64,000 nt of DNA, from the NCBI GenBank assembly GCA_944390795.1, contig CALXRI010000002.1, positions 124,001 through 188,000 of the forward strand, given 5' to 3'. The position numbers and the translations under genes were made by a program. The notes below the pieces were generated by a model that was given only the letters and a program-made list of their open reading frames with translations, had not been told where the DNA came from and did not search any database. Within the stretch, counting starts at the first letter, position 1. Each line of letters starts with the position of its first letter. Positions 29,679 to 41,656 of the stretch are shown here, one piece after another. The stretch is from an uncultured Victivallales bacterium (GTDB taxonomy: Bacteria > Verrucomicrobiota > Lentisphaeria > Victivallales > UBA1829).

Positions 29679-31082
29679 TCACAGCTCGAACACCTTGCCG
29701 GGATTGAGAATGTTCTTCGGATCGAACGCCCGCTTGATCCCGCGCATCAGCCCGATCTGCTCCGGAGCGAGCGACCGCGCCAGATACGGCTTCTTCGCAA
29801 AGCCGATTCCGTGTTCGCCGGAGACCTGGCCGCCGAGTTCGTGCGCGCGGCCGTAAAGATCGTCGAACACGGCCGAGAGCTTCCGTTTCCAGGCGGATTC
29901 GTCAAGCGCGTCGCGCAGGATGTAGATGTGCAGGTTTCCGTCCCCCGCATGACCGAACGAGCGGATGCGCACGCCGTGCTTTTTCTGCAGCGACGAGGCG
30001 AAAGTGATGAACTCCGCCACATGAATGCGCGGGACGACGACGTCGCACTCGTCCATTTCCGTCGTGGACGCCTTGATCGCCTCCAGAAACGCGCCGCGCG
30101 CCGCCCAGAGCGACTCGTTGCGTTCATCCGTGTCGGAAAGGAAAACGTCGAGCGCGCCGAGCTCCAGACAGCGTGCCGCGACTGCATGAAAGGCCAGATC
30201 GACCTCCTCGGGGCTCATTCCGTCGAAGGTCAGAAGCAGATACGCGTCCGCGCTGTTGTCGGGGAACTTGCGGTTGAGGAACTCTTCCGCGGCGAGAATC
30301 ACTTCCCGCTCCATGAACTCGACGGCGGTCGGTACGGAACTAGTCTTGATGACCTCCGGAACAGCCGAAATTGCGGAGTTCAGATCGGGAAACGGGACCA
30401 GCAGACTGATCTTGTGCTTCGGAAGCGGAATCAGGCGCAGAATGATCTTCGTAATCACGCCGAGCGTCCCTTCGGAACCGACAAACAGATCCTTGAGGTC
30501 ATAGCCGGAACTGTTCTTCACGATCTTTCCGCCGAGTTCAATCACGCTCCCGTCCGGCAGCACGACTTCAAGTCCCCGCACATAGTCGCGCGTGATTCCG
30601 TATTTGACCGCGCGCATTCCGCCCGCGTTCGTATTGACATTTCCGCCGATCGTCGCCGTTTTCTCGCCCGGATCCGGCGGATAGAAGAGGTTGTGCTCCT
30701 CCACGTATTTCCCGATGTCCATCAGAAGGACGCCCGGCTCGAGCGTCAGCGTCATGTTGACCTCATCCAGCTCCAGAAAGCGGTTCATCGCGCAGAAGTC
30801 AAGGAGAATCCCTCCGCAGAGCGCGACGGAGGCTCCGACCAGGCCGGTCCCCTGCCCGCGCGGCGTCACGGGAATGCTGTTTTCATACGCGTAGCGCATG
30901 ATCCGGGAGACCTCGTCCGTCGAAAGCACCTTCACAAGCGCTTCGGGTTCGCGCCGGATGCCGCCGAGCTCGTCATGCCAGTAGTCCTCGCCGATTTCGC
31001 CGCGGACGCTCACGCGCTCCGGGCAGACGGAACGGAGAAAGTCGAAGTCTTCCTGCTCCATTTTCTTATATTTCATATCCAT
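29679..31082 (-). CDS. lctD: FAD-linked lactate/glycolate dehydrogenase, LctD-like
   Basis: This 467-residue flavoprotein belongs to the GlcD/LctD family. The FAD_binding_4 domain is visible: [38 protein letters not shown] and [15 protein letters not shown]. It is followed by FAD-oxidase_C with the [13 protein letters not shown] and [10 protein letters not shown] blocks. In Acetobacterium woodii the LctD subunit works with EtfB/EtfA, coupling lactate oxidation by NAD+ to oxidation of reduced ferredoxin (electron confurcation). Here it lies 3 bp after an etfA with a ferredoxin-like domain and in the same operon as larA, which supports that assignment over a respiratory glycolate oxidase. Confidence 0.88.
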
Positions 31083-31085
31083 TGT

Positions 31086-32366
31086 TCACGCACCCTTTCC
31101 CTTCGCCGCCTTGATTTTTCCAATGAGTTCCGGCACAATCCTGTAGACGTCCCCGACGATCCCGATGTGCGCGATGTTGAATATCGGCGCATTCGGATCG
31201 GTGTTGATCGCCACGATGCATTCGCTGCCGTTCATGCCGGCGGCGAACTGCACCGCGCCGGAGACCGCGCAGGTCAGGATGAGTTTCGGCTTGACCGTGC
31301 GTCCGCTGAGCCCGATCTGGCGCCGCGCGTCGATCCATCCGGCTTCCACCATCGCGCGCGTCGAGCCGAGCTGGCCGCCGAGGAGCCCGGCCAGTTCCTC
31401 CAGCATGGCGATGTCCTCGGGCTTCTTGAGGCCGCGCCCCGCAACCACGATCACATCGGCGTCCTCGATTCCGCGTTCGCTCTGCTTGCGGCGCATCGAG
31501 AGGAATTCGATTCCGGAAGCAAGACGCCGCGCGTCGAGCTTGCCGGATATGAATTTCGCATGCGGGGCGGTCTTCTCCGGCATGGCGAAAACTTTATAGC
31601 GCACGGTGGCGAACTGCGGACGATGCCGCGGCGTGCGGATGTGCGCCATGATGTTTCCGCCGTAAGCGGGGCGGATCTGATCGAGATCCGTATTCTTCTG
31701 AATGTCCAGGACCGTGCAGTCCGCCGTCAGCCCGGAACGGAAGCGCGCCGCCGCGCGGGGGGCAAGCGATCGCCCGACAGAAGTTCCCCCGACCAGCACG
31801 ACGGAGGGTTTCACATACGAAATAAACTCCTCCAGGGCCGCGCAATAGGGTTCGATCCGGAAGTGCGCAAGCTCCTCCTGATCGTAAAGATAAATTTCAT
31901 CCGCGCCGTATTCCGCAAGCGAGGCCGCCGCCTTCGCAAGATTGTGTCCGATGAGAAGACAGCACACCTTCTGAGAGACCTTCCCGGCAAGCTCCCGCGC
32001 CTTTCCGAGCAGCTCCAGCGTGACCGGATGGACGGAGGATCCGACCATCTCCGCAACCACGGCGATTCCGTTCCACTGCGTCTTGTCCGCGCCGGAAGAG
32101 GCGTCATCCTCAACATATTCAAAAATGCCGTCGCCCTTTTTGCAGCAGATTCGGCACATGCGGCAGGCGGCGTTGATTGAAAGTTCGCCGTTGACGTAGT
32201 CGATCGCGCCGAACGGGCAGAGCGCCTGAAGTTTCTTCACGTCGGTCACTTTCCCGTCATGCAGCACGACTTCGCCGAGATTCAGCGCTCCCGTGCCGAA
32301 CGGAAACTGCGCGTTGAGTTTCTTTTCGTCCGTGACCCGTTCCTGATGGATGATGATCTTTGCCAT
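31086..32366 (-). CDS. etfA: Electron-transfer flavoprotein alpha with N-terminal ferredoxin domain
   Basis: This 426-residue protein has an N-terminal Fe-S domain with Cys50 (LCPFGAI) and a CxxCxxCC cluster (Cys68, 71, 74, 75: ACRMCRICC), giving ligands for a 4Fe-4S cluster. The rest is EtfA: the FAD-binding C-terminal block has VVAGRGLKKPEDIAML, GLSGRTVKPKL and INTDPNAPIFNIAHIGIVGD. This Fd-EtfA architecture is the hallmark of LctC in the bifurcating lactate dehydrogenase of Acetobacterium. It follows etfB by 4 bp and precedes lctD by 3 bp. Confidence 0.92.
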   Translation of the reverse strand: MAKIIIHQERVTDEKKLNAQFPFGTGALNLGEVVLHDGKVTDVKKLQALCPFGAIDYVNGELSINAACRMCRICCKKGDGIFEYVEDDASSGADKTQWNGIAVVAEMVGSSVHPVTLELLGKARELAGKVSQKVCCLLIGHNLAKAAASLAEYGADEIYLYDQEELAHFRIEPYCAALEEFISYVKPSVVLVGGTSVGRSLAPRAAARFRSGLTADCTVLDIQKNTDLDQIRPAYGGNIMAHIRTPRHRPQFATVRYKVFAMPEKTAPHAKFISGKLDARRLASGIEFLSMRRKQSERGIEDADVIVVAGRGLKKPEDIAMLEELAGLLGGQLGSTRAMVEAGWIDARRQIGLSGRTVKPKLILTCAVSGAVQFAAGMNGSECIVAINTDPNAPIFNIAHIGIVGDVYRIVPELIGKIKAAKGKGA

Positions 32367-32370
32367 CGCT

Positions 32371-33174
32371 TCACCTCAACTCGCTGAGAAACCGTTTTTC
32401 TTCGAGAAACGCGCAGAGCTTCCCGGCGAGCATTTCACCTTCGCCCGTCCAGGTCTCCTTCTCCGTCTTGATCTCCGGGGGAAAAATCCGCTGCACCTGG
32501 GTCGGGGAACCGTTCAGGCCGTAATGGGATTCGTCCCGGTCGGGGAGATCGTCCAGCGAGAAACAGGTGATTTTCCTGTCCGCTGTGGCAAGTTTGCGCC
32601 GGAACGAGGGAAGACGCGGCTCGAAAATACCCTTTTCCACGGTCAGGAGACAGGGAAGCTTCATGCGGACATCCACCACATGAAGCGGGATTTCCGCCTC
32701 GACGTCAAGTTTGCCTTCCTCCTGCATTCCGAGAAACTTCGTCACATTCGTCAGATGCGGAATGCCGAGAAACTCGGCAAGCTCCGCGCCGACCTGTGCA
32801 GTATCTCCGTCCGTGGTCTGCTTGCCGCAGAGGATCAGATCCCAGGCGCCGATCTTCCGGATCCCCTGCGACAGCGTGTAGGCGGTCGCCAGCACATCCG
32901 CACCGCCGAAACGCCGGTCGGAAAGAAGATACGCGTCGTCCGCGCCCATCATGAACGCTTCGCGCAGCACCTTTTCCGCCTGCGGCGGCCCCATCGTAAG
33001 GACCGAAATTCTTCCGCCGTGCCGTTCCCGGAGACGCATTGCGCTTTCCAGCGCGAAGAGATCGAACGGGTTCATTTTCGCGGCGACGCCGTCGCGCTTC
33101 AGGACCCCGGTCTTTTCATCAATTTCCACCTGCGCCGTTCCCGGCACCTGTTTGATGCAGACAATGATATTCAT
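32371..33174 (-). CDS. etfB: Electron-transfer flavoprotein beta subunit
   Basis: This 267-residue protein is a full EtfB: MNIIVCIKQVPGTA at the start, VLTMGPPQAEKVLREAFMMGADDAYLLSDRRFGGADVLATAYTL spread over residues about 55-100, and LILCGKQTTDGDTAQVGAELAE. The TMGPPQA and DGDTAQVG segments are typical of the bifurcating Etf group, in which EtfB carries the bifurcating FAD. The ATG at 33174 overlaps the larA stop (ATGA, 33171-33174). It pairs with the ferredoxin-domain EtfA directly downstream. Confidence 0.93.
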   Translation of the reverse strand: MNIIVCIKQVPGTAQVEIDEKTGVLKRDGVAAKMNPFDLFALESAMRLRERHGGRISVLTMGPPQAEKVLREAFMMGADDAYLLSDRRFGGADVLATAYTLSQGIRKIGAWDLILCGKQTTDGDTAQVGAELAEFLGIPHLTNVTKFLGMQEEGKLDVEAEIPLHVVDVRMKLPCLLTVEKGIFEPRLPSFRRKLATADRKITCFSLDDLPDRDESHYGLNGSPTQVQRIFPPEIKTEKETWTGEGEMLAGKLCAFLEEKRFLSELR

Positions 33175-34514
33175 TTTTCTTCCTTTTTCCCGACAAGTGT
33201 ATTGCATCCGCGCCGGATCGGCGTCCGTCGCGCCTTGAAGTCCTGTTGCATCCGGGCGATCACCGAAACCCCGTCCGGAATCGCCGCGACTTTCGCATCC
33301 GGCCCGCAGAGTTCAAAAGCCTTCGCAAGCGCCTCGTCAACCGAGGACGCGGCCGTTAGATGCATGGCATGAAGCATCCGGTGGTCGCAGTCTTTCGTCA
33401 CGACAATCACGGTATGCTTCACCAGAATGCGCGCGAGAATCTGATACTCCCACTGATCCGGTTCGGTCCGGTCCCGGGGGATGCGTGAAACCTCGTCCAG
33501 GATCTGCTGCGGCGTCCCTCCTGCAAGATGGCGGTAAAACGATTCCCCGCCGTGCCCGTCGCAGCAGCTCGCGCAGAGGATGATGACGCCGCCTTCGCGG
33601 CAGACCGCCTCCCCCGCCGTCATCCCCTTGACCGACTGATAGACATTCTGGTCGAGCGGATAGCCGCCGTTCCCTGTGATGACGATGTCGGCCTCCGGCA
33701 CCTCGATCCGGGCATGGCGCGAGAGATACTCCGTTCCGGCGCGGTGCGCAGCCACGGGATCGCCGGCAAACGCGGCGACAATCCGCTTTTCCGCATTGAT
33801 CACGACATTCACGATAAATGCCAGCTTCGCCGTTTTCGCCGCAAACAGCATGTCCTCGTGAATCGGATTGCCGTCCAGCACTCCGGTCCGCGCCTTCGGG
33901 TGCCGGATGAATTCCGCGCAGTGGTTCGCCAGAACCGTCCGGCGGGAGGCAATGCCGGGAAGCACGCTCTTGCGTCCGCCGGAAAATCCGGCAAAGAAAT
34001 GGGGTTCGATGAATCCTTCGGCGACGAGCAGCGAGGCCTCCGCGGCAAGGCGGTTGACAATCAGCTCTCCGCCGGAGGGAAGCGTCCCGATCCTTACGAG
34101 GCCGGATTCATCCGAGGAGTCGTGCACGACAATTCTCTCACGCCGGACAATTTCCGGACCGAACTTGTCCAGAAGCTCCGCCCCGGTCGTTCCGCGATGG
34201 AATCCGGTCGCGATCAGAATGGTGATCGCGATCGAGGGATTTCCCTTGCGCAGACGTGCAAGGATCTGCGGCATGAGAATACGGCTCGGAACCGGGCGCG
34301 TGTGATCGCTTGCGATGACGACCGCGTCGTTCACGCGCGAGGCGAGCTCTTCAAGTCCGGGCGAAGCGAACGGAGCATCCAGCGCCCGGGAAACCTCCGA
34401 AGTTTCATCACGGGCGGCCGCGGGAAGAGCCGCATGGAAACTTCCGAGAAAATTTTTCTCATCCACATGCCCCGTCAGCATGGTTTTCCCATAGGGAATG
34501 CTGATTTCCCGCAT
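33171..34514 (-). CDS. larA: Nickel-dependent lactate racemase LarA-like
   Basis: This 447-residue protein keeps the active-site residues of LarA at nearly the same numbers as in Lactiplantibacillus plantarum. The matches are SDHTRP (Asp70, Arg73), His106 in TGFHRGTT, His172 in EPHFFAG, Lys182 in GGRKSVLPG and His198. In LarA, Lys184 covalently binds the nickel-pincer nucleotide and the histidines act in hydride and proton transfer. It interconverts D- and L-lactate, or another 2-hydroxyacid, as LarA homologues vary. It heads the operon with etfB, etfA and lctD. The cofactor genes larB, larC and larE are not in this window. The ATG at 34514 has an AAAGGAAAG SD. Confidence 0.88.
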   Translation of the reverse strand: MREISIPYGKTMLTGHVDEKNFLGSFHAALPAAARDETSEVSRALDAPFASPGLEELASRVNDAVVIASDHTRPVPSRILMPQILARLRKGNPSIAITILIATGFHRGTTGAELLDKFGPEIVRRERIVVHDSSDESGLVRIGTLPSGGELIVNRLAAEASLLVAEGFIEPHFFAGFSGGRKSVLPGIASRRTVLANHCAEFIRHPKARTGVLDGNPIHEDMLFAAKTAKLAFIVNVVINAEKRIVAAFAGDPVAAHRAGTEYLSRHARIEVPEADIVITGNGGYPLDQNVYQSVKGMTAGEAVCREGGVIILCASCCDGHGGESFYRHLAGGTPQQILDEVSRIPRDRTEPDQWEYQILARILVKHTVIVVTKDCDHRMLHAMHLTAASSVDEALAKAFELCGPDAKVAAIPDGVSVIARMQQDFKARRTPIRRGCNTLVGKKEEK

Positions 34515-34605
34515 TGACCGCTTTCCTTTCCGCTTTGCAAAATTCCGCCTTACACTAGCTCCCGGAATGGATTTTTCAACCGGGGGAAAAGAAAAAGGGA
34601 TGATT

Positions 34606-34666
34606 TTCTCAGAAATTATCAAAATATTATCATTATATTTATCATTTATTTATCATAAAACAATCA
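34606..34666. repeat. Phased TTATCA hexamer array between lactate and iolB operons
   Basis: Exact TTATCA copies start at 34616, 34627, 34639 and 34650, spaced 11, 12 and 11 bp, so all lie on one face of the helix. Degenerate flanking copies (TTCTCA at 34606, CAATCA at 34661) keep the same phase. On the minus strand the unit reads TGATAA. The array lies between larA (start 34514) and the pfkB promoter at 34686 and could bind a cooperative regulator or bend the DNA. A TATAAT read on the minus strand (34637-34632) sits within the array as a possible -10 for larA. Confidence 0.7.
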
Positions 34667-34761: not shown

Positions 34762-35670
34762 ATGAAGAGTGACATTGCATTCGTCGGACTCGGTTACTGC
34801 AGCAACGACTATCTCTGCCGGGTGCCGGAAATCCCGCTGGATCACAAGATCGAGGCGCTCGAACATCTGACGCAGGGCGGCGGCCCGGCGGCAACGGCGA
34901 CGGTGGCGGCGGCCCGGCTCGGAATGAAATGCGCGTTCGTCGGAGTCGCAGGCGACGATGAATCGGGACAGATGATTGTCAGGGACCTCAACGCCGAAAA
35001 GGTTTCCACCGAAGCGTTTCGGGTCCGGAAGGGCTGCACGACCTCGAGCGCCTACTGCTGGATCGACGCAAGCGGAAAACGCAGCATTGTATGGTACCGG
35101 GGCAACGGCGCGGATCTTGCGCCGGAGGAGGTGCCCGAACCGCTGATCGCAAATGCAAAACTCCTGCATCTGGACGGACATCAGACGCATGCGGCGCTTG
35201 CGGCGGCGAAGATGGCGCGGAAGCACGGCGTGCTGGTCAACATCGACGCGGGAACGCTCCGCCCGGGAGTCGGGGAAATTCTGAAACACACGGACATTCT
35301 CATCACGTCCGAATTTTTCGCAAAGCAGATCACGGGAGCGGAGGGCTACGAGACTCAGCTGATGGAACTCGTGAAGATCGGCGCAAAGGTCACGGGCATC
35401 ACGATGGGATGCCGGGGGTCGATGTGCTATGACCGGGAGACGGGAAAAGTGATTCGCTGCCCGATTTTCGAGGATTGTCCGGTCGTCGACACCACGGGCG
35501 CGGGAGATGTGTTCCATGCCGCGTTCGGCGTGCGCTATCTGACATGCAGGGATCTGTTCCAGTGCCTCCGCTTCGCCTCCGCGGTATCGGGAATCAAGTG
35601 CGGAAAACTCGGCGGACGCGCGGGAATTCCGACATTGGCGGAAGTGGAAGCTTTTCTGAAACGGCATTGA
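34762..35670 (+). CDS. PfkB-family carbohydrate kinase
   Basis: This 302-residue ribokinase-like protein begins AFVGLGYCSNDYL. It has the N-terminal substrate block QGGGPAATATVAAARLG and the C-terminal PfkB signature with the catalytic Asp (VVDTTGAGDVFHAAF, Asp near 254). It phosphorylates a sugar or sugar acid with ATP. The position next to iolB suggests a role like IolC (5-dehydro-2-deoxygluconate kinase), but the sequence alone does not prove the substrate. The ATG at 34762 has an AGGAAA SD and directly precedes the first beta-strand; an upstream extension is unlikely because it would run back into the promoter. Confidence 0.9.
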   Translation: MKSDIAFVGLGYCSNDYLCRVPEIPLDHKIEALEHLTQGGGPAATATVAAARLGMKCAFVGVAGDDESGQMIVRDLNAEKVSTEAFRVRKGCTTSSAYCWIDASGKRSIVWYRGNGADLAPEEVPEPLIANAKLLHLDGHQTHAALAAAKMARKHGVLVNIDAGTLRPGVGEILKHTDILITSEFFAKQITGAEGYETQLMELVKIGAKVTGITMGCRGSMCYDRETGKVIRCPIFEDCPVVDTTGAGDVFHAAFGVRYLTCRDLFQCLRFASAVSGIKCGKLGGRAGIPTLAEVEAFLKRH

Positions 35671-35860
35671 AAAAGGAAAAAGGTCCACGGAAGGCGCAGA
35701 AGTCCGTTTCGCCTCCGGCGGCGGCTTGCGCAGCCGGACTGCGGCAGGACGGAAAGTCCTGCACGAATATAAGTTGCGAGGCAAATTAATTATTTTTTGA
35801 ATTGCGCAGCTTCGCGCGCATGATTTAAAAACGGGAACATTCAACCAGGGAGGTTGTAAA
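35671..35860 (+). other. Structured spacer between pfkB and iolB
   Basis: This 190-base gap contains a perfect hairpin GCAGGAC/GTCCTGC (35744-35750 with 35756-35762, loop GGAAA), nested near an outer AGTCCG/CGGACT pair (35701-35706 with 35735-35740). No T-run follows, so it is not a standard terminator. An SD (GGGAGG) stands before iolB. No gene is present. It may modulate expression between the two genes. Confidence 0.4.
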
Positions 35861-36664
35861 ATGGAAAAACTGCTTGTCAGACTCGGGAAGAAACTGAAGA
35901 ACGGATACAACCCGGTCTTCCGGAATCACACACTCGGCATGAAACTCACCACCTTCGGCATCCTCTCGCTGGAAAAAGGAAACTCCTATACGGCCGATAC
36001 CGGCGACAACGAAGTCGCCCTGGTCATTCTCGGCGGCAAATGCTCCGTGAAGGGAAAGGATTTCTCCTTCGCGGAAGTCGGAGAGCGCAAGGACGTCTTC
36101 TCCGGCAAACCCCATACGGTGTATCTCCCCTTCCATACGGAATACACCGTCACGGCTCTGACCGATACGGTGGATCTGGCCGTGAACGAATCCCCGGCGA
36201 CACGCGGAACCGCGCCGCCGACCGTCATCCGTCCTGAAGACACCAGGGAAATCACGATCGGGCGCGACAACTTCACACGCAAGGCCACCATCATGCTGGA
36301 CGAGAAATTCGATTCGGAACACTTCTACATCGGCGAAGGGCTCGTCCCCTCCGGCAACTGGTCCGGCTATCCCCCGCACCGCCACGACATCGACAATCCC
36401 CCGGAGGAAATCGACATGGAGGAGACCTATTTCTACCGCTTCCAGCCGCAGCAGGGCTTCGGCATCCAGAAGGTCTACACCGCCGACCGGCGCATCGATG
36501 AAATCTACACGATCGAGGAAAACGACACCGTCGCGATCGCCGAAGGCTACCACCCGCTGGCGGCCGCGCCCGGATACGACATGTATTATCTCTGGACGAT
36601 GACGGGCGCGAACAACCGCGGCCTCATCTCCAGCAAAGATCCCGATCACGCATGGGTAAAATGA
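35861..36664 (+). CDS. iolB: 5-deoxy-glucuronate isomerase IolB
   Basis: This 267-residue double-cupin protein matches IolB closely. The metal site appears as YPPHRHD (His173, His175), METYFYRF-like EETYFYRF (Glu188) and GYHPLAAAPGYDMYYLW (His231). The C-terminal DPDHAW is also typical. IolB converts 5-deoxy-glucuronate to 5-dehydro-2-deoxy-gluconate in myo-inositol breakdown. It lies in one operon with a PfkB kinase upstream and an FGGY kinase overlapping its stop codon. Other canonical inositol genes (iolD, iolE, iolG) are not adjacent. Confidence 0.93.
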   Translation: MEKLLVRLGKKLKNGYNPVFRNHTLGMKLTTFGILSLEKGNSYTADTGDNEVALVILGGKCSVKGKDFSFAEVGERKDVFSGKPHTVYLPFHTEYTVTALTDTVDLAVNESPATRGTAPPTVIRPEDTREITIGRDNFTRKATIMLDEKFDSEHFYIGEGLVPSGNWSGYPPHRHDIDNPPEEIDMEETYFYRFQPQQGFGIQKVYTADRRIDEIYTIEENDTVAIAEGYHPLAAAPGYDMYYLWTMTGANNRGLISSKDPDHAWVK

Positions 36665-38178
36665 TGGCGGGCAAAGACATCCTCCTTGGAATCGACTTCG
36701 GTTCCGGCGGCTGCAAGATCAGCGCGATTGACACCGTCGGCGCCCTGCTCGGCGAAGCCTCCGTGGAATACCCGACGCATTATCCGCATCCGGGATTCTC
36801 CGAACAGGAACCGGCCGACTGGTATGACGCGATGTGCCGCGCGCTCGCGCTTCTCCGGGAGCGGAACGTCGATTTCCGGAGGATCGCGGCAGTCGCCTTC
36901 GACGGGTCCACGCACAACGCGGTGCTGCTGGACGGGAACATGAAGCCCCTGCGGCGGACGATCATGTGGACCGACCAGCGCAGCGTCGAGGAGTGCGCAT
37001 ATCTGAAAGCGCACTATGCGGAGCGGATTTTCGCGACGGCGTGGCAGATGCCGACGCCGACCTGGACGCTTCCCCAGCTCATGTGGATCCGGAACCATGA
37101 AAAGGAGGTGATCGCGAAGACCGAACACGTCCTGTTTGTGAAGGATTATGTCCGCTATCTTGTAACAGGCTTATCCGCAACGGATTACATTGAAGCGCAG
37201 GGCACGCTTTTCTTCAACATGGCAAAGCGGGAATGGGCGGAGGAGCTCGTCGCGCCGACGGGATTGAAAATGTCCGCCCTCCCCCGGCTGCTCCGTCCGT
37301 GCGACCGGGCGGGAAGCGTCACAAGAGCCGCCGCGCGTGACACGGGAATTCCGGAAGGCACTCCCGTCATCTGCGGCAGTTCCGACTCCGCAGTCGAGGA
37401 TTACGGCGCCGGAGCCGTTGAGCCGGGCGACTGCATCGTCAAGCTCGCGACGGCAGGCAACGTCAATGTCATGACGGACCGCGCGGTCCCGCACGAACGC
37501 ACGCTCACCTATTCGCACATTGTCGAAGGCATGTATTACACGGTCTCGGCGACAAACGCGGCGGCGGTCTGCCAGAGATGGTTCCGCGACAATTTCTGCG
37601 ACACGGAAAAGCGTCTCGCTTCCGAACGCGGCGCCAAGGCGTTCAATCTGATGGACGAACTGGCGGAGACCTCGCCGGCCGGCTCGAACGGCATCTTCTT
37701 CCACCCCTATCTCCAGGGGGAGCGCTCCCCCTACTGGGATCCGGATCTGCGCGGCAGTTTCAGCGGAATCGGCATGGGAAGCACCCGGGCGGATTTCGCC
37801 CGCGCCCTGCTCGAAGGCGTCGGATTTTCACTCCTGGACTGCTACGGGCTGATCGAGGAGATGAAACTCCCGGTCAAACGCCTTTTCCTGATCGGAGGCG
37901 GAGGAAGGAGCCGTCTCTGGAGCAGCATCGTCTGCAACATCTTCAATCTTCCGCTGACCGTCCCCTCCCCCGGCGACGCGTCCTTCGGCGCGGCGCTTCT
38001 CGCGGGAAGCGGCGTCGGGATTTTCAGCGACCCCCGCGAAGCGGTCAGACGCTGTCTCCGGATCGACCGGGAGCTTGCGCCCGATCCCGGAACGGCGGAA
38101 AAATACCGGAAGCTGTTCGCCTCCTACAAGGCGATTCACGACGCGATGGCTCCGGTCTACCGCGCGTTGCGGAAATGA
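36661..38178 (+). CDS. FGGY-family carbohydrate kinase, XylB-like
   Basis: This 505-residue kinase has the N-terminal phosphate-binding GIDFGSGGCKISAID, the AVAFDGSTHNAVLLD block, IMWTDQRS, the substrate side and the C-terminal LFLIGGGGRSRLWSSIVCNIFNLP, which is the FGGY_C signature. Relatives phosphorylate xylulose, gluconate, glycerol and other polyols. Three in-frame ATGs lie at 36652, 36661 and 36664. The one at 36661 overlaps the iolB stop (ATGA) and is preferred. A kinase of this family in an IolB cluster is unusual and suggests a parallel sugar or polyol branch. Confidence 0.9.
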   Translation: MMAGKDILLGIDFGSGGCKISAIDTVGALLGEASVEYPTHYPHPGFSEQEPADWYDAMCRALALLRERNVDFRRIAAVAFDGSTHNAVLLDGNMKPLRRTIMWTDQRSVEECAYLKAHYAERIFATAWQMPTPTWTLPQLMWIRNHEKEVIAKTEHVLFVKDYVRYLVTGLSATDYIEAQGTLFFNMAKREWAEELVAPTGLKMSALPRLLRPCDRAGSVTRAAARDTGIPEGTPVICGSSDSAVEDYGAGAVEPGDCIVKLATAGNVNVMTDRAVPHERTLTYSHIVEGMYYTVSATNAAAVCQRWFRDNFCDTEKRLASERGAKAFNLMDELAETSPAGSNGIFFHPYLQGERSPYWDPDLRGSFSGIGMGSTRADFARALLEGVGFSLLDCYGLIEEMKLPVKRLFLIGGGGRSRLWSSIVCNIFNLPLTVPSPGDASFGAALLAGSGVGIFSDPREAVRRCLRIDRELAPDPGTAEKYRKLFASYKAIHDAMAPVYRALRK

Positions 38179-38248
38179 TTCCCCTCCCCGGAAGCAAAAT
38201 GAAGTTGATCGAATAAGAAATCACCATCAATCAAGGAGATACGACAAA

Positions 38249-39694
38249 ATGTTGCCGTCCACCAGCAATTACATGTTCGAAATGATCCGAAGCGAACTCA
38301 CTGACGCCGTCGGGAAAGAGTATGTCGACGTCCGTGAAGCGGACCGCTTCGCCCACTCCGTCGACTACTACTGGATTCCCGAAATGTGGCATGACCGCAA
38401 CATGCCCAACCCGCAGGCGGATCTCATCGTCCATCCGGGCACAGCCGAAGAAGTCTCGAAGGTCATGAAGATCGCCAACACCTACAAGATTCCCGTGGTG
38501 CCGTGGGGCGGCGGCTCGGGCTCGCAGGGCGGCGCGCTTCCCGTGCTCGGCGGCATTCTCCTTGACACGAAGCGCCTGAACAGGGTCTGGAAGATCGACA
38601 CCACCGCGCTGACGGTCACGGCCGGAACGGGAATCATCATGCGCCATCTGGAGTGGGAGGTCAACAAGGCGGGCTATTCGACGATGCATCTTCCCGCTTC
38701 GATCGCCTGCGCGACGGTCGGCGGCTTCCTCGCACACCGCGGAACGGGCGTCCTCTCGACGAAATGGGGCAAGATCGAAGACATGGTCATGTCGCTGGAA
38801 GTCGTCCTGCCGACGGGCGAAATCATCAATACGCTCCCGATTCCGCGCCACGCGTCCGGGCCCGATCTCACGATGATGTTCCTGGGAAGCGAAGGCACGC
38901 TCGGCGTCATCACGAAAGTCACGCTGAAAATCCATCCGCAGCCCGAGGCGCGCAAATTCCGCGCCTATCTCTTCAAGACCTTCGACGACGCGATGGACGC
39001 CGGAGCCTCCCTGATGAGAAGCCGTCTGCGCCCCTGCGCGATCCGCCTCTATGACGAGGAGGAGACGCGCCATCACGTCAAACGCGTGTTCGGGCTCGAC
39101 GACATCAGCGGCTCCTATCTGGTGTTCGGATTCGACGGCTATGAGAAAATCGTCGATCTGGAAATGGAGGAGGCCATGAAGATCATGAGGAAATACGACG
39201 TCCGGGACCTCGGAAGCAAAGGCGGCGACATGTGGTGGGAGAACAAATACAAGTTCTTCTATCCGCCCTACATGTTCCATATGCCGCAGGCCTTCGGGAC
39301 GCTCGACACGGTCGCAACCTTCAGCGACATCAAGAACGTCTATCACGCCATGAAGAAGGTCGTCAACGAAAACTTCCCCGAAGCGCGCTTCATCGGACAC
39401 TTCTCGCACTGGTATGAATGGGGCTGCATGCTCTACGCGCGCTTCATCTTCGAGAAGGCGCCCGCGGACCCGCGCGAGGCGGCGGCGCTCTACAACCGCG
39501 TCTGGGATCTGGCGATCCGCGCGGCGATCGCCAACGGCGGCGTCATCAACGAGCACCACGGCGTCGGACTCAAGCTCGGGCGCCTGATGAAGGAGCTCTA
39601 CGGACCCGCCAAGGAGCTCGTGCTCGACAAGCTCAAAAAGGAGCTCGACCCGAACAACATCATGAATCCCGGCAAAATGGGTTTCGGCTTCTGA
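38249..39694 (+). CDS. FAD-linked oxidase of the AgpS/GlcD-like family
   Basis: This 481-residue protein has the FAD_binding_4 fold ([50 protein letters not shown]) and the FAD-oxidase_C part (FIGHFSHWYEWGCMLYARF, INEHHGVGLKLGRLM). It is closer to the alkyl-dihydroxyacetonephosphate synthase/D-lactate dehydrogenase branch than to LctD encoded at 29679. It precedes an Fe-S protein by 36 bp, which looks like an electron-accepting partner. The ATG at 38249 has an AAGGAGAT SD. It probably oxidises a 2-hydroxyacid or polyol produced in this pathway. Confidence 0.88.
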   Translation: MLPSTSNYMFEMIRSELTDAVGKEYVDVREADRFAHSVDYYWIPEMWHDRNMPNPQADLIVHPGTAEEVSKVMKIANTYKIPVVPWGGGSGSQGGALPVLGGILLDTKRLNRVWKIDTTALTVTAGTGIIMRHLEWEVNKAGYSTMHLPASIACATVGGFLAHRGTGVLSTKWGKIEDMVMSLEVVLPTGEIINTLPIPRHASGPDLTMMFLGSEGTLGVITKVTLKIHPQPEARKFRAYLFKTFDDAMDAGASLMRSRLRPCAIRLYDEEETRHHVKRVFGLDDISGSYLVFGFDGYEKIVDLEMEEAMKIMRKYDVRDLGSKGGDMWWENKYKFFYPPYMFHMPQAFGTLDTVATFSDIKNVYHAMKKVVNENFPEARFIGHFSHWYEWGCMLYARFIFEKAPADPREAAALYNRVWDLAIRAAIANGGVINEHHGVGLKLGRLMKELYGPAKELVLDKLKKELDPNNIMNPGKMGFGF

Positions 39695-39730
39695 ATCCGA
39701 CACATCTTTAGAAATCAAGGAGAATCTTCC

Positions 39731-40783
39731 ATGCATATCCAGAAATTTGAAGACGCCATGAAGGCATGCCGCTTCTGTTTCATGTGCCGCCATCTTTCCG
39801 CGGTCGGCAACGTCACGTTCAGCGAATCCGACACCCCGCGCGGACGCGCGCTGCTGCTCGACAAGGTCTCGATGAATCCGGAATTTCTCAGGAGCGAGGC
39901 GGTCGTCTCGACGATGTATCAGTCCGACCTCAGCGCGTGCTGCCGCTTCCACTGCGTCAGCCATTACGACGAGAACGGACTTGTCCTCGCCGCCCGGCGC
40001 GACATCGTCGAAGCGGGAGCGGCGCCGGAAAACGTCGGAAAACTGGCGGCGGAACTCGGGAAAAGCGCAGCGTTCAAGGTTTCCGGAAAAAAGGCCGACA
40101 CCATCTATTTCATCGACCGGTACACGGCGCGGCAGCCGGAAATCTCCGGCGCGTTTGATAAAATCGCAAAGGCGGCAAAAGTTCCGTATATGACGATCAC
40201 CGGCGGCTGTCTCGGCAAGGCCCTCAAAACGCTCGGCTTTGAAAACGAGGCGAAAAAAGCGGCATCGGCATTCGCGAAAGCCCTCGCGGCGTCCGGAGCG
40301 AAAGTGGTGGTCGTCAGCAATCCTGCCGCCTACGACGCGCTGAAGAACGACTGTCCCGCGCTCGGAATCAAACTCAAATGCAAGGTCATGCACACGTCGG
40401 AATTCATCGCGGGGAAACTCGCGGGGCTGAAGCTCCGGAAACCGGCGGGAAAGGCCTCCGCAGTCTATTATCTGGAAAGCGACTTCCTCCGGAACTACAA
40501 CGAGGTCGCCGCGCCGCGTGAAGCGCTCACGAGGTGCGGCTTCAAGCTCCTGCCGTTCGGCACGAACAACGAGGAGTCCTACTCCGCCGGAGAGGGAGCA
40601 TGCGTCCTGCCCGAACTCAATCCCGGACTCGTGAAACTTCTTGCCGAGAAGGTCGCCTCGCGCTGCGACGATGCGAAAAAGGACACGCTTGTCACGGCGT
40701 CTCCCTACACGAAGCATGTGCTCACGAAATATGCGGGCCTCAAGGTGAAGACGATTGAGGAAATGGTCTCCTCGCTTCTCTGA
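39731..40783 (+). CDS. Fe-S oxidoreductase subunit, GlpC/GlcF-like
   Basis: This 350-residue protein has an N-terminal cysteine cluster CRFCFMCRH (Cys13, 16, 19) and a second DLSACCRFHC, as expected for 4Fe-4S ligands. The C-terminal half has alpha/beta segments similar to the heterodisulfide reductase-like CCG domains of GlcF/GlpC proteins, but the CCG motifs are degenerate. It follows the FAD-linked oxidase in the same operon and is probably its electron acceptor. I cannot tell what it passes electrons to. Confidence 0.72.
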   Translation: MHIQKFEDAMKACRFCFMCRHLSAVGNVTFSESDTPRGRALLLDKVSMNPEFLRSEAVVSTMYQSDLSACCRFHCVSHYDENGLVLAARRDIVEAGAAPENVGKLAAELGKSAAFKVSGKKADTIYFIDRYTARQPEISGAFDKIAKAAKVPYMTITGGCLGKALKTLGFENEAKKAASAFAKALAASGAKVVVVSNPAAYDALKNDCPALGIKLKCKVMHTSEFIAGKLAGLKLRKPAGKASAVYYLESDFLRNYNEVAAPREALTRCGFKLLPFGTNNEESYSAGEGACVLPELNPGLVKLLAEKVASRCDDAKKDTLVTASPYTKHVLTKYAGLKVKTIEEMVSSLL

Positions 40784-40825
40784 AACGCCCGCCACCAGTG
40801 AGAGATAAAACGAAACGAGAAAAAA

Positions 40826-41656
40826 ATGGCTCTTTACACATTCAATGAACTGCTGCGCCCGGCGCGCCGGGAAGGAGTGGCGGTTGCTGCAATCAACATT
40901 GCGAACTACGAAACGGCGGTCGCTGTCTGCGAGGCATCGGAACAGGTGCGGCGTCCGGTCATCATCCAGATGTATTCGCGGATGTTCGGAAACGGCAAGG
41001 CGGAGATGCTGATCCCCCTGCTCCGGAAACTTGCGGAGAAATCCGGCCAGATGGTCGCGGTGCATCTCGACCACGGCGCAAGTCTCGAACAGGTGCGGGA
41101 CGCGGTCCGCTGGGGATGCACGTCGGTGATGTTCGACGGCTCGAACCTTCCGATGGAGGAGAACATCCGGATCACGCGCGAAGTCGTGAAGCTTGCGAGG
41201 GCGGCCGGCGTTTCCACCGAGGCGGAGATCGGGCACGTCGCAATAGGTGACGAGGGACATCTGACCGATCCGGATGAGGCGAAACGCTTTGTCGAGGAAA
41301 CGGGAGTCGATGCGCTCGCGGTTGCAATCGGGACGGCGCACGGCTACTATAAAACCGTGCCGGAACTCGACATCGAACGCTGCGCGGCGATCGCCGAAGC
41401 GCTGCCCGATACGCCGCTCGTCCTGCACGGCGGCAGCGGCACGCCGATGGAGGACGTGAAGAAAGTCATCCGTCGCGGCATCGCCAAAATCAACATCGCC
41501 ACGGAGTTTCAGGACACCTTTCTCAAGGCGACCAGGGCGGAACTGGAAAAACTCAATGGAAAATTCCTTCCGATCGACCGCTTCATGGATCCGGTCCGGG
41601 AAAAATGCGCCGCCCACGCGGCGCGCCTGATGAAGGAGTTCGCTTTTCTGTCATAA
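40826..41656 (+). CDS. Class II fructose-bisphosphate-type aldolase, possibly IolJ-like
   Basis: This 276-residue zinc aldolase has the family blocks VAVHLDHGASLEQV, TEAEIGHVAIGDEG, AIGTAHGYYK, LHGGSGTPMEDVKK and AKINIATEFQ, with Zn-binding histidines in HLDHG, GTAHG and HGGSG. Family members cleave fructose- or tagatose-1,6-bisphosphate; IolJ cleaves 6-phospho-5-dehydro-2-deoxygluconate into DHAP and malonate semialdehyde. With PfkB and IolB upstream, an IolJ-like role fits best. It is last in the operon and is followed by a strong terminator. Confidence 0.9.
   Translation: MALYTFNELLRPARREGVAVAAINIANYETAVAVCEASEQVRRPVIIQMYSRMFGNGKAEMLIPLLRKLAEKSGQMVAVHLDHGASLEQVRDAVRWGCTSVMFDGSNLPMEENIRITREVVKLARAAGVSTEAEIGHVAIGDEGHLTDPDEAKRFVEETGVDALAVAIGTAHGYYKTVPELDIERCAAIAEALPDTPLVLHGGSGTPMEDVKKVIRRGIAKINIATEFQDTFLKATRAELEKLNGKFLPIDRFMDPVREKCAAHAARLMKEFAFLS

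Follow-up and report, generated by a model that had tools for sequence, protein, structure and literature searches.

A six-gene operon of an uncultured Victivallales bacterium probably encodes a conserved, undescribed pathway of Verrucomicrobiota that converts a galactose-type sugar to a central three-carbon sugar phosphate. The operon lies at positions 34762-41656 of the window analysed here, a stretch of 64,000 nucleotides from GenBank assembly GCA_944390795.1 (contig CALXRI010000002.1, positions 124,001 to 188,000 of the forward strand). Together with an aldose isomerase of family PF02952 encoded elsewhere in the genome, the operon can be read as a dedicated sugar pathway that ends in an aldolase and does not serve inositol, a reading that we regard as evenly poised. 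Within it, the formation of dihydroxyacetone phosphate (DHAP) by a non-inositol route is firmer than the assignment of a D-galacto substrate. No account of the pathway emerged when the literature was searched for this gene set.

The operon consists of six open reading frames (ORFs) on the + strand, encoding the following proteins:

34762..35670, + strand: PfkB-family sugar kinase of the YihV-like group, not IolC (PF00294, 151 bits)
35861..36664, + strand: IolB/KduI-family (cupin) isomerase (PF04962; TIGR04378, 250 bits)
36652..38178, + strand: FGGY-family kinase, xylulokinase-like (FGGY N and C domains; TIGR01312, 377.9 bits)
38249..39694, + strand: flavin adenine dinucleotide (FAD) dehydrogenase, similar to alkyl-DHAP synthase (ADPS) (PF01565, FAD_binding_4; PF02913, FAD-oxidase_C)
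39731..40783, + strand: iron-sulfur (Fe-S) partner with a CCG fold, EtfD/LutA/HdrB-like (invariant cysteines; AlphaFold and Foldseek)
40826..41656, + strand: class II aldolase of the fructose/tagatose bisphosphate (FBP/TBP) type (PF01116, F_bP_aldolase, 289 bits)

The gaps between successive genes, from PfkB to the aldolase, are 190, -13, 70, 36 and 42 nt, short distances consistent with one transcription unit; between PfkB and IolB lies a G+C-rich stretch that is not repeated elsewhere in the window. Pfam and NCBIfam confirm the family of five of the six ORFs, the exception being the Fe-S partner, which matches no model in either collection.

Conservation across Verrucomicrobiota

Scanning GTDB genomes for homologues of the Fe-S protein recovered 22 loci carrying the whole or partial operon, nearly all titled Lentisphaerae or Victivallales and the remainder Verrucomicrobia, Kiritimatiellae and Geminisphaera; two weak matches in Bacteroidales came without other operon genes. 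The same gene set in the same order is also found in Opitutales. In Lentisphaerae, Kiritimatiellae and Geminisphaera the order PfkB-(PF02952)-IolB-FGGY-FAD-FeS-aldolase persists even where identity has fallen to about 50%, and the FAD gene is the most conserved member (at least 68% identity within the 22 loci). A divergent DeoR regulator is present at many loci but not in the clade of the window.

A fucose/arabinose isomerase of the AraA/FucI type (PF02952) is encoded inside the operon at 10 of the 22 loci. The window operon lacks this gene, and the orthologue in the same genome lies at a contig end, away from the operon (G000:C10:109403-110743); it clusters with the operon copies in a tree and shares 61% identity with the one located between the FGGY and FAD genes in genome G213. 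Among 289 genomes of the phylum, the FAD gene and PF02952 occur in 31 each and are shared by 27, compared with 3.3 expected, while operon-type IolB occurs in 35, including all 31 genomes with the FAD gene. Closely related genomes in this sample are not independent, so the p-values overstate the significance of co-occurrence, although the pattern spans several classes. The PF02952 aldose isomerase belongs to the gene set as its seventh member, and the grouping, conserved at 22 loci and co-occurring across 289 genomes, is not due to chance. The original prediction of a coherent, non-standard gene set is borne out, its six ORFs lying where and in the order stated.

Other Verrucomicrobiota (L184, L190, L196, L197, L198) have a second PF02952 paralogue, which is accompanied by AraC and Gfo/Idh genes, often also by genes for a TIM-barrel isomerase or ThuA, and probably marks another aldose pathway.

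A predicted route to dihydroxyacetone phosphate

The PF02952 and IolB families are aldose-ketose isomerases, YihV-like PfkB kinases phosphorylate the CH2OH group next to a keto group, and class II aldolases release DHAP. Kinase and aldolase chemistry of this kind is exemplified by the enzymes of the sulfo-Embden-Meyerhof-Parnas (sulfo-EMP) pathway (PMC12890257). The best PDB match of the window PfkB is a sulfofructose kinase (YihV, 7AG6, 126 bits), with IolC (2QCV) at 63.6 bits, and the protein is a putative ketose 1-kinase. The aldolase is nearest to 7NCC (177.6 bits), followed by the TBP aldolase AgaY (171.6 bits), and is predicted to cleave a ketose-1-phosphate to yield DHAP. The PF02952 profile matches L-arabinose isomerases best, and PfkB, PF02952 and a class II aldolase are also encoded together in Persicobacter.

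From the observed gene content, gene order, co-occurrence, family and active-site features and absence of iolD, iolE and iolG, we infer an order of reactions, a substrate and roles for the FGGY and FAD/Fe-S proteins, as follows. In relatives of the window genome, a glycoside hydrolase (GH) of family GH4, GH2 or GH28 would release a D-galacto sugar, either D-galactose or D-galacturonate. The aldose would be converted to a 2-ketose by the PF02952 isomerase, with IolB acting on a second or anionic substrate, after which PfkB would phosphorylate the CH2OH group beside the keto group and the class II aldolase would split the resulting ketose-1-phosphate into DHAP and an aldehyde. The FGGY and FAD/Fe-S proteins would form a second entry module, phosphorylating and oxidizing a polyol or sugar akin to the main substrate. 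Stated for the phylum, this would be an EMP-like pathway in which the IolB cupin and PF02952 isomerases feed the YihV-like kinase and class II aldolase, and the ADPS-like FAD/Fe-S enzyme and FGGY kinase constitute a redox entry arm for a related polyol or sugar acid; we rate this full assignment of roles slightly short of an even chance.

The identity of the input sugar is suggested by glycosidases encoded with the operon in relatives. A GH4 gene lies in or adjoins the operon in 10 genomes, and the encoded proteins reach or exceed the cut-off for the alpha-galactosidase subfamily, apart from one just below it; one is 58% identical to the GH4 of an Enterococcus alpha-galactoside cluster. GH2 accompanies the operon in five genomes, and the one member tested has a beta-galacturonidase as its best PDB match (277 bits versus 178 for the next), while GH28 is encoded between PF02952 and IolB in one genome. 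These enzymes point to a D-galacto-type sugar from a glycoside as the input, an assignment that, within the reading of a DHAP-forming route, we make tentatively.

Several observations weigh against this scheme. Only a subset of the operons includes glycosidases, and the clade of the window lacks them. Two isomerases and two kinases exceed the needs of one linear route, and their division of labour is guessed; the two isomerases may reflect two related substrates. One aldolase position, presumably the basic residue that contacts the distal phosphate in bisphosphate aldolases, varies among operon aldolases, with R in the window clade and K or L in relatives. UxaC is encoded in the window genome and in 212 of the 289 genomes, so galacturonate isomerisation does not depend on IolB alone, which weakens the case for IolB as a UxaC substitute. 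Tartronate-semialdehyde reductase was absent from the window genome at E<=1e-60 and was not enriched, and cleavage of galacturonate (as tagaturonate phosphate) to tartronate semialdehyde is weakened by this absence.

IolB and the inositol pathway

The window IolB passes the IolB equivalog model (TIGR04378, 250.1 bits versus a cut-off of 205), and the operon IolBs retain the HxHD, EETY/EEIY and GYHP/GFHP motifs. They form their own clade with a YYLW signature; five IolBs from iol loci or adjoining iolG carry YYLN, and YYLW also occurs in the IolBs of E. eligens and a Priestia plasmid. In the latter (Priestia megaterium, L084 10013-13942), IolB adjoins altronate dehydratase and tagaturonate reductase, with no UxaC annotated in the stretch, and may be a local uronate isomerase; this setting indicates that the IolB family is used outside inositol metabolism. 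A relative in E. coli, KduI, reportedly promotes the conversion of galacturonate and glucuronate (PMC3578941).

The original prediction held that IolB, PfkB and the aldolase can complete the lower inositol pathway, a claim that the sequence comparisons do not support. The window PfkB falls well under the IolC equivalog cut-off (TIGR04382, 108.4 bits versus 300) and is nearer to sulfofructose kinase, and IolB belongs to the separate YYLW clade. The lack of IolD, IolE and IolG, first noticed for the locus, extends to the rest of the genome, which is 95% complete and in which the best scores (222, 68 and 173 bits, respectively) are below the curated cut-offs of 715, 290 and 355. IolD exceeds its cut-off in 7 of the 289 genomes and in none of the 31 operon carriers; because IolD is rare, this zero overlap is not significant in itself, yet it does show that IolD is dispensable for the operon. 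On the results for IolC, IolD, IolE and IolG and the profile across the phylum, the inositol pathway was rejected. The operon shares with the myo-inositol system (iolBCDEGJ) an IolB-family isomerase, a PfkB kinase and a class II aldolase giving DHAP, but differs from it in lacking IolD, IolE and IolG, in its non-IolC PfkB and separate IolB clade, and in the addition of PF02952, FGGY and FAD/Fe-S proteins.

A separable FGGY-FAD-Fe-S module

The FGGY kinase scores just under the xylulokinase equivalog cut-off (TIGR01312, 377.9 versus 380.25 bits) and is about 40% identical to FGGY genes that adjoin FAD oxidases on alphaproteobacterial plasmids. The best PDB matches of the FAD enzyme are ADPS structures (183 and 160 bits). 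In the active-site numbering of ADPS, the enzyme keeps the equivalents of R419, Y578, H616 and H617, with Glu in place of H615. With ADPS as the closest family and these residues kept, the FAD enzyme may act on a phosphorylated or polyol-like substrate. The closeness to ADPS among families of solved structure and the retained His-His pair make a GlcD-type 2-hydroxyacid oxidase less likely for the FAD gene.

The AlphaFold model of the Fe-S partner (predicted local distance difference test score, pLDDT, 89) has EtfD, LutA and HdrB as its top Foldseek matches. Cysteines C13, C16, C19 and C75 are invariant among operon homologues, fewer than the full cysteine set of CCG clusters, and since four cysteines suffice the protein probably holds one [4Fe-4S] site.

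The FGGY, FAD and Fe-S genes form what appears to be a separable second module of the operon. All three have homologues together, apart from the other operon genes, in Mesorhizobium (L075), and Roseibium, Paracoccus and Shinella have FGGY-FAD pairs accompanied by sugar ABC transporters. A plasmid search with the Fe-S protein as query gave no match, and a Microbacterium protein encoded beside a related FAD enzyme proved not to be an Fe-S homologue. The arrangement is reminiscent of polyol-phosphate oxidation by GlpK and GlpABC, in which an FGGY kinase likewise adjoins an FAD dehydrogenase with a CCG-fold Fe-S subunit; however, the operon FAD enzyme belongs to the ADPS/GlcD (VAO) family and not to GlpA, and its FGGY kinase is xylulokinase-like.

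We note that on the alphaproteobacterial plasmids L075, L078, L079 and L080 the FGGY-FAD oxidase pairs are flanked by LacI and ABC transporter genes, three of the four loci adding Fe-type alcohol dehydrogenase and short-chain dehydrogenase/reductase genes; these loci represent a separate uncharacterised module. Of the four invariant cysteines, three are missing from the Mesorhizobium Fe-S homologue (L075 13434-14558), although its gene still adjoins the FAD gene.

Alternative pathways

Inositol could still be involved if the FAD/Fe-S and FGGY proteins replaced IolG, IolE and IolD to yield 5-deoxy-glucuronate in a variant inositol or cyclitol route, leaving IolB, PfkB and the aldolase to act as IolB, IolC and IolJ. 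The equivalog-level IolB match agrees with this, as does the fit of a PfkB kinase and class II aldolase to the chemistry with which the pathway ends (PMC8355322 for the pathway), in its last two steps. The same scheme leaves the PF02952 isomerase and glycosidases without a place, and the PfkB score, the IolB clade and the distribution of IolD described above count against it. We also know of no enzyme type among the operon genes that hydrates or opens a cyclohexane ring, and we consider the variant route very unlikely. The original prediction was right in finding no place for FGGY and FAD/Fe-S in the established inositol route, and a different substrate is likely; its suggestion of another cyclitol fares less well, as the aldose isomerase and the GH4, GH2 and GH28 enzymes point to an aldose derived from a glycoside.

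Sulfoquinovose, or another hexose with an anionic group at position 6, offers a second alternative, in which PF02952 would be SqvD-like, PfkB YihV-like and the aldolase SqiA-like, with the remaining proteins handling the aglycone or C3 product. The SftI/SqvD isomerase is a PF02952 protein and sulfo-EMP2 uses a class II aldolase (PMC11968277, PMC12890257). The gene set contains the PF02952 isomerase, kinase and class II aldolase on which sulfo-EMP depends, a triad that, IolB aside, resembles sulfo-EMP2 (SqvD, SqiK, SqiA). YihV is the nearest solved structure to PfkB, the nearest plasmid relatives of PF02952 lie in sulfoglycolysis-like clusters, and some sulfo clusters, such as that for sulfoquinovose in E. 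rectale, hold a cupin (role not known) and a glycerol kinase. However, positions N109 and R138 of YihV, which we take to be sulfonate-site residues, correspond to W and H in the window PfkB, the H being kept in all operon PfkBs. Sulfolactaldehyde (SLA) reductase or dehydrogenase and sulfoquinovosidase (GH31) were not among the recurrent neighbours in 49 stretches, no genome-wide search having been made for them, and the operon is instead accompanied by FAD/Fe-S proteins and galacto-type glycosidases (GH4, GH2, GH28). The altered sulfonate-site positions and the lack of SLA enzymes among operon neighbours lower this reading, which we judge improbable. A tagatose-type bisphosphate route, in which PF02952 would form a ketohexose, FGGY and PfkB would phosphorylate C6 and C1, and the aldolase would give DHAP and glyceraldehyde-3-phosphate while FAD/Fe-S feeds in the matching polyol, accounts for both kinases with products that need no extra enzyme. 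The PF02952 profile is closest to L-arabinose isomerases and the operon GH4 is close to alpha-galactosidases, both in keeping with such a route. It leaves IolB unexplained, however, and the presumed distal-phosphate residue is variable; moreover, the FGGY, FAD and Fe-S genes are found together without isomerase, PfkB or aldolase, so the FGGY kinase looks tied to the FAD enzyme. We regard the tagatose-type route as unlikely, though less so than the sulfoquinovose one. E. coli YdjH/YdjI (octuluronate kinase and aldolase) likewise pair a PfkB kinase with a class II aldolase that cleaves a ketose-acid 1-phosphate, but they are not closest to the operon proteins in either tree, and their cluster lacks isomerase, FGGY and FAD/Fe-S genes.

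Two plasmid clusters with PF02952 look like sulfoquinovose-type clusters: Zymomonas pZZM402 (L077) encodes an aldolase, aldose epimerase, PF02952, Gfo/Idh and a major facilitator superfamily transporter, and a Chlorohelix plasmid (L076) encodes a phosphofructokinase, PF02952, semialdehyde dehydrogenase and sulfite reductase.

Neighbouring genes

A divergent cluster on the - strand of the window (29679-34622) encodes the nickel lactate racemase LarA, EtfB, EtfA with a ferredoxin-like part at its N-terminus, and a GlcD-type dehydrogenase; its content resembles that of an electron-confurcating lactate dehydrogenase set accompanied by the racemase. Five genomes (L156, L159, L169, L172, L186) carry a glucosamine-6-phosphate-deaminase-like gene close to the operon.

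Implications

The genes of this predicted DHAP-forming, non-inositol route are routinely named for inositol, xylulose or glycolate metabolism, so their annotation is probably wrong here, and with it genome annotation and gut and sediment metabolic models at these genes in Lentisphaerae and relatives. The conserved set of seven enzymes with its redox module offers a well-defined starting point for the discovery of a new carbohydrate pathway, and it makes testable roles of an IolB-family isomerase and an ADPS-like flavoenzyme beyond the textbook ones. If the proposed route is correct, the IolB and ADPS-like families would have new physiological roles.

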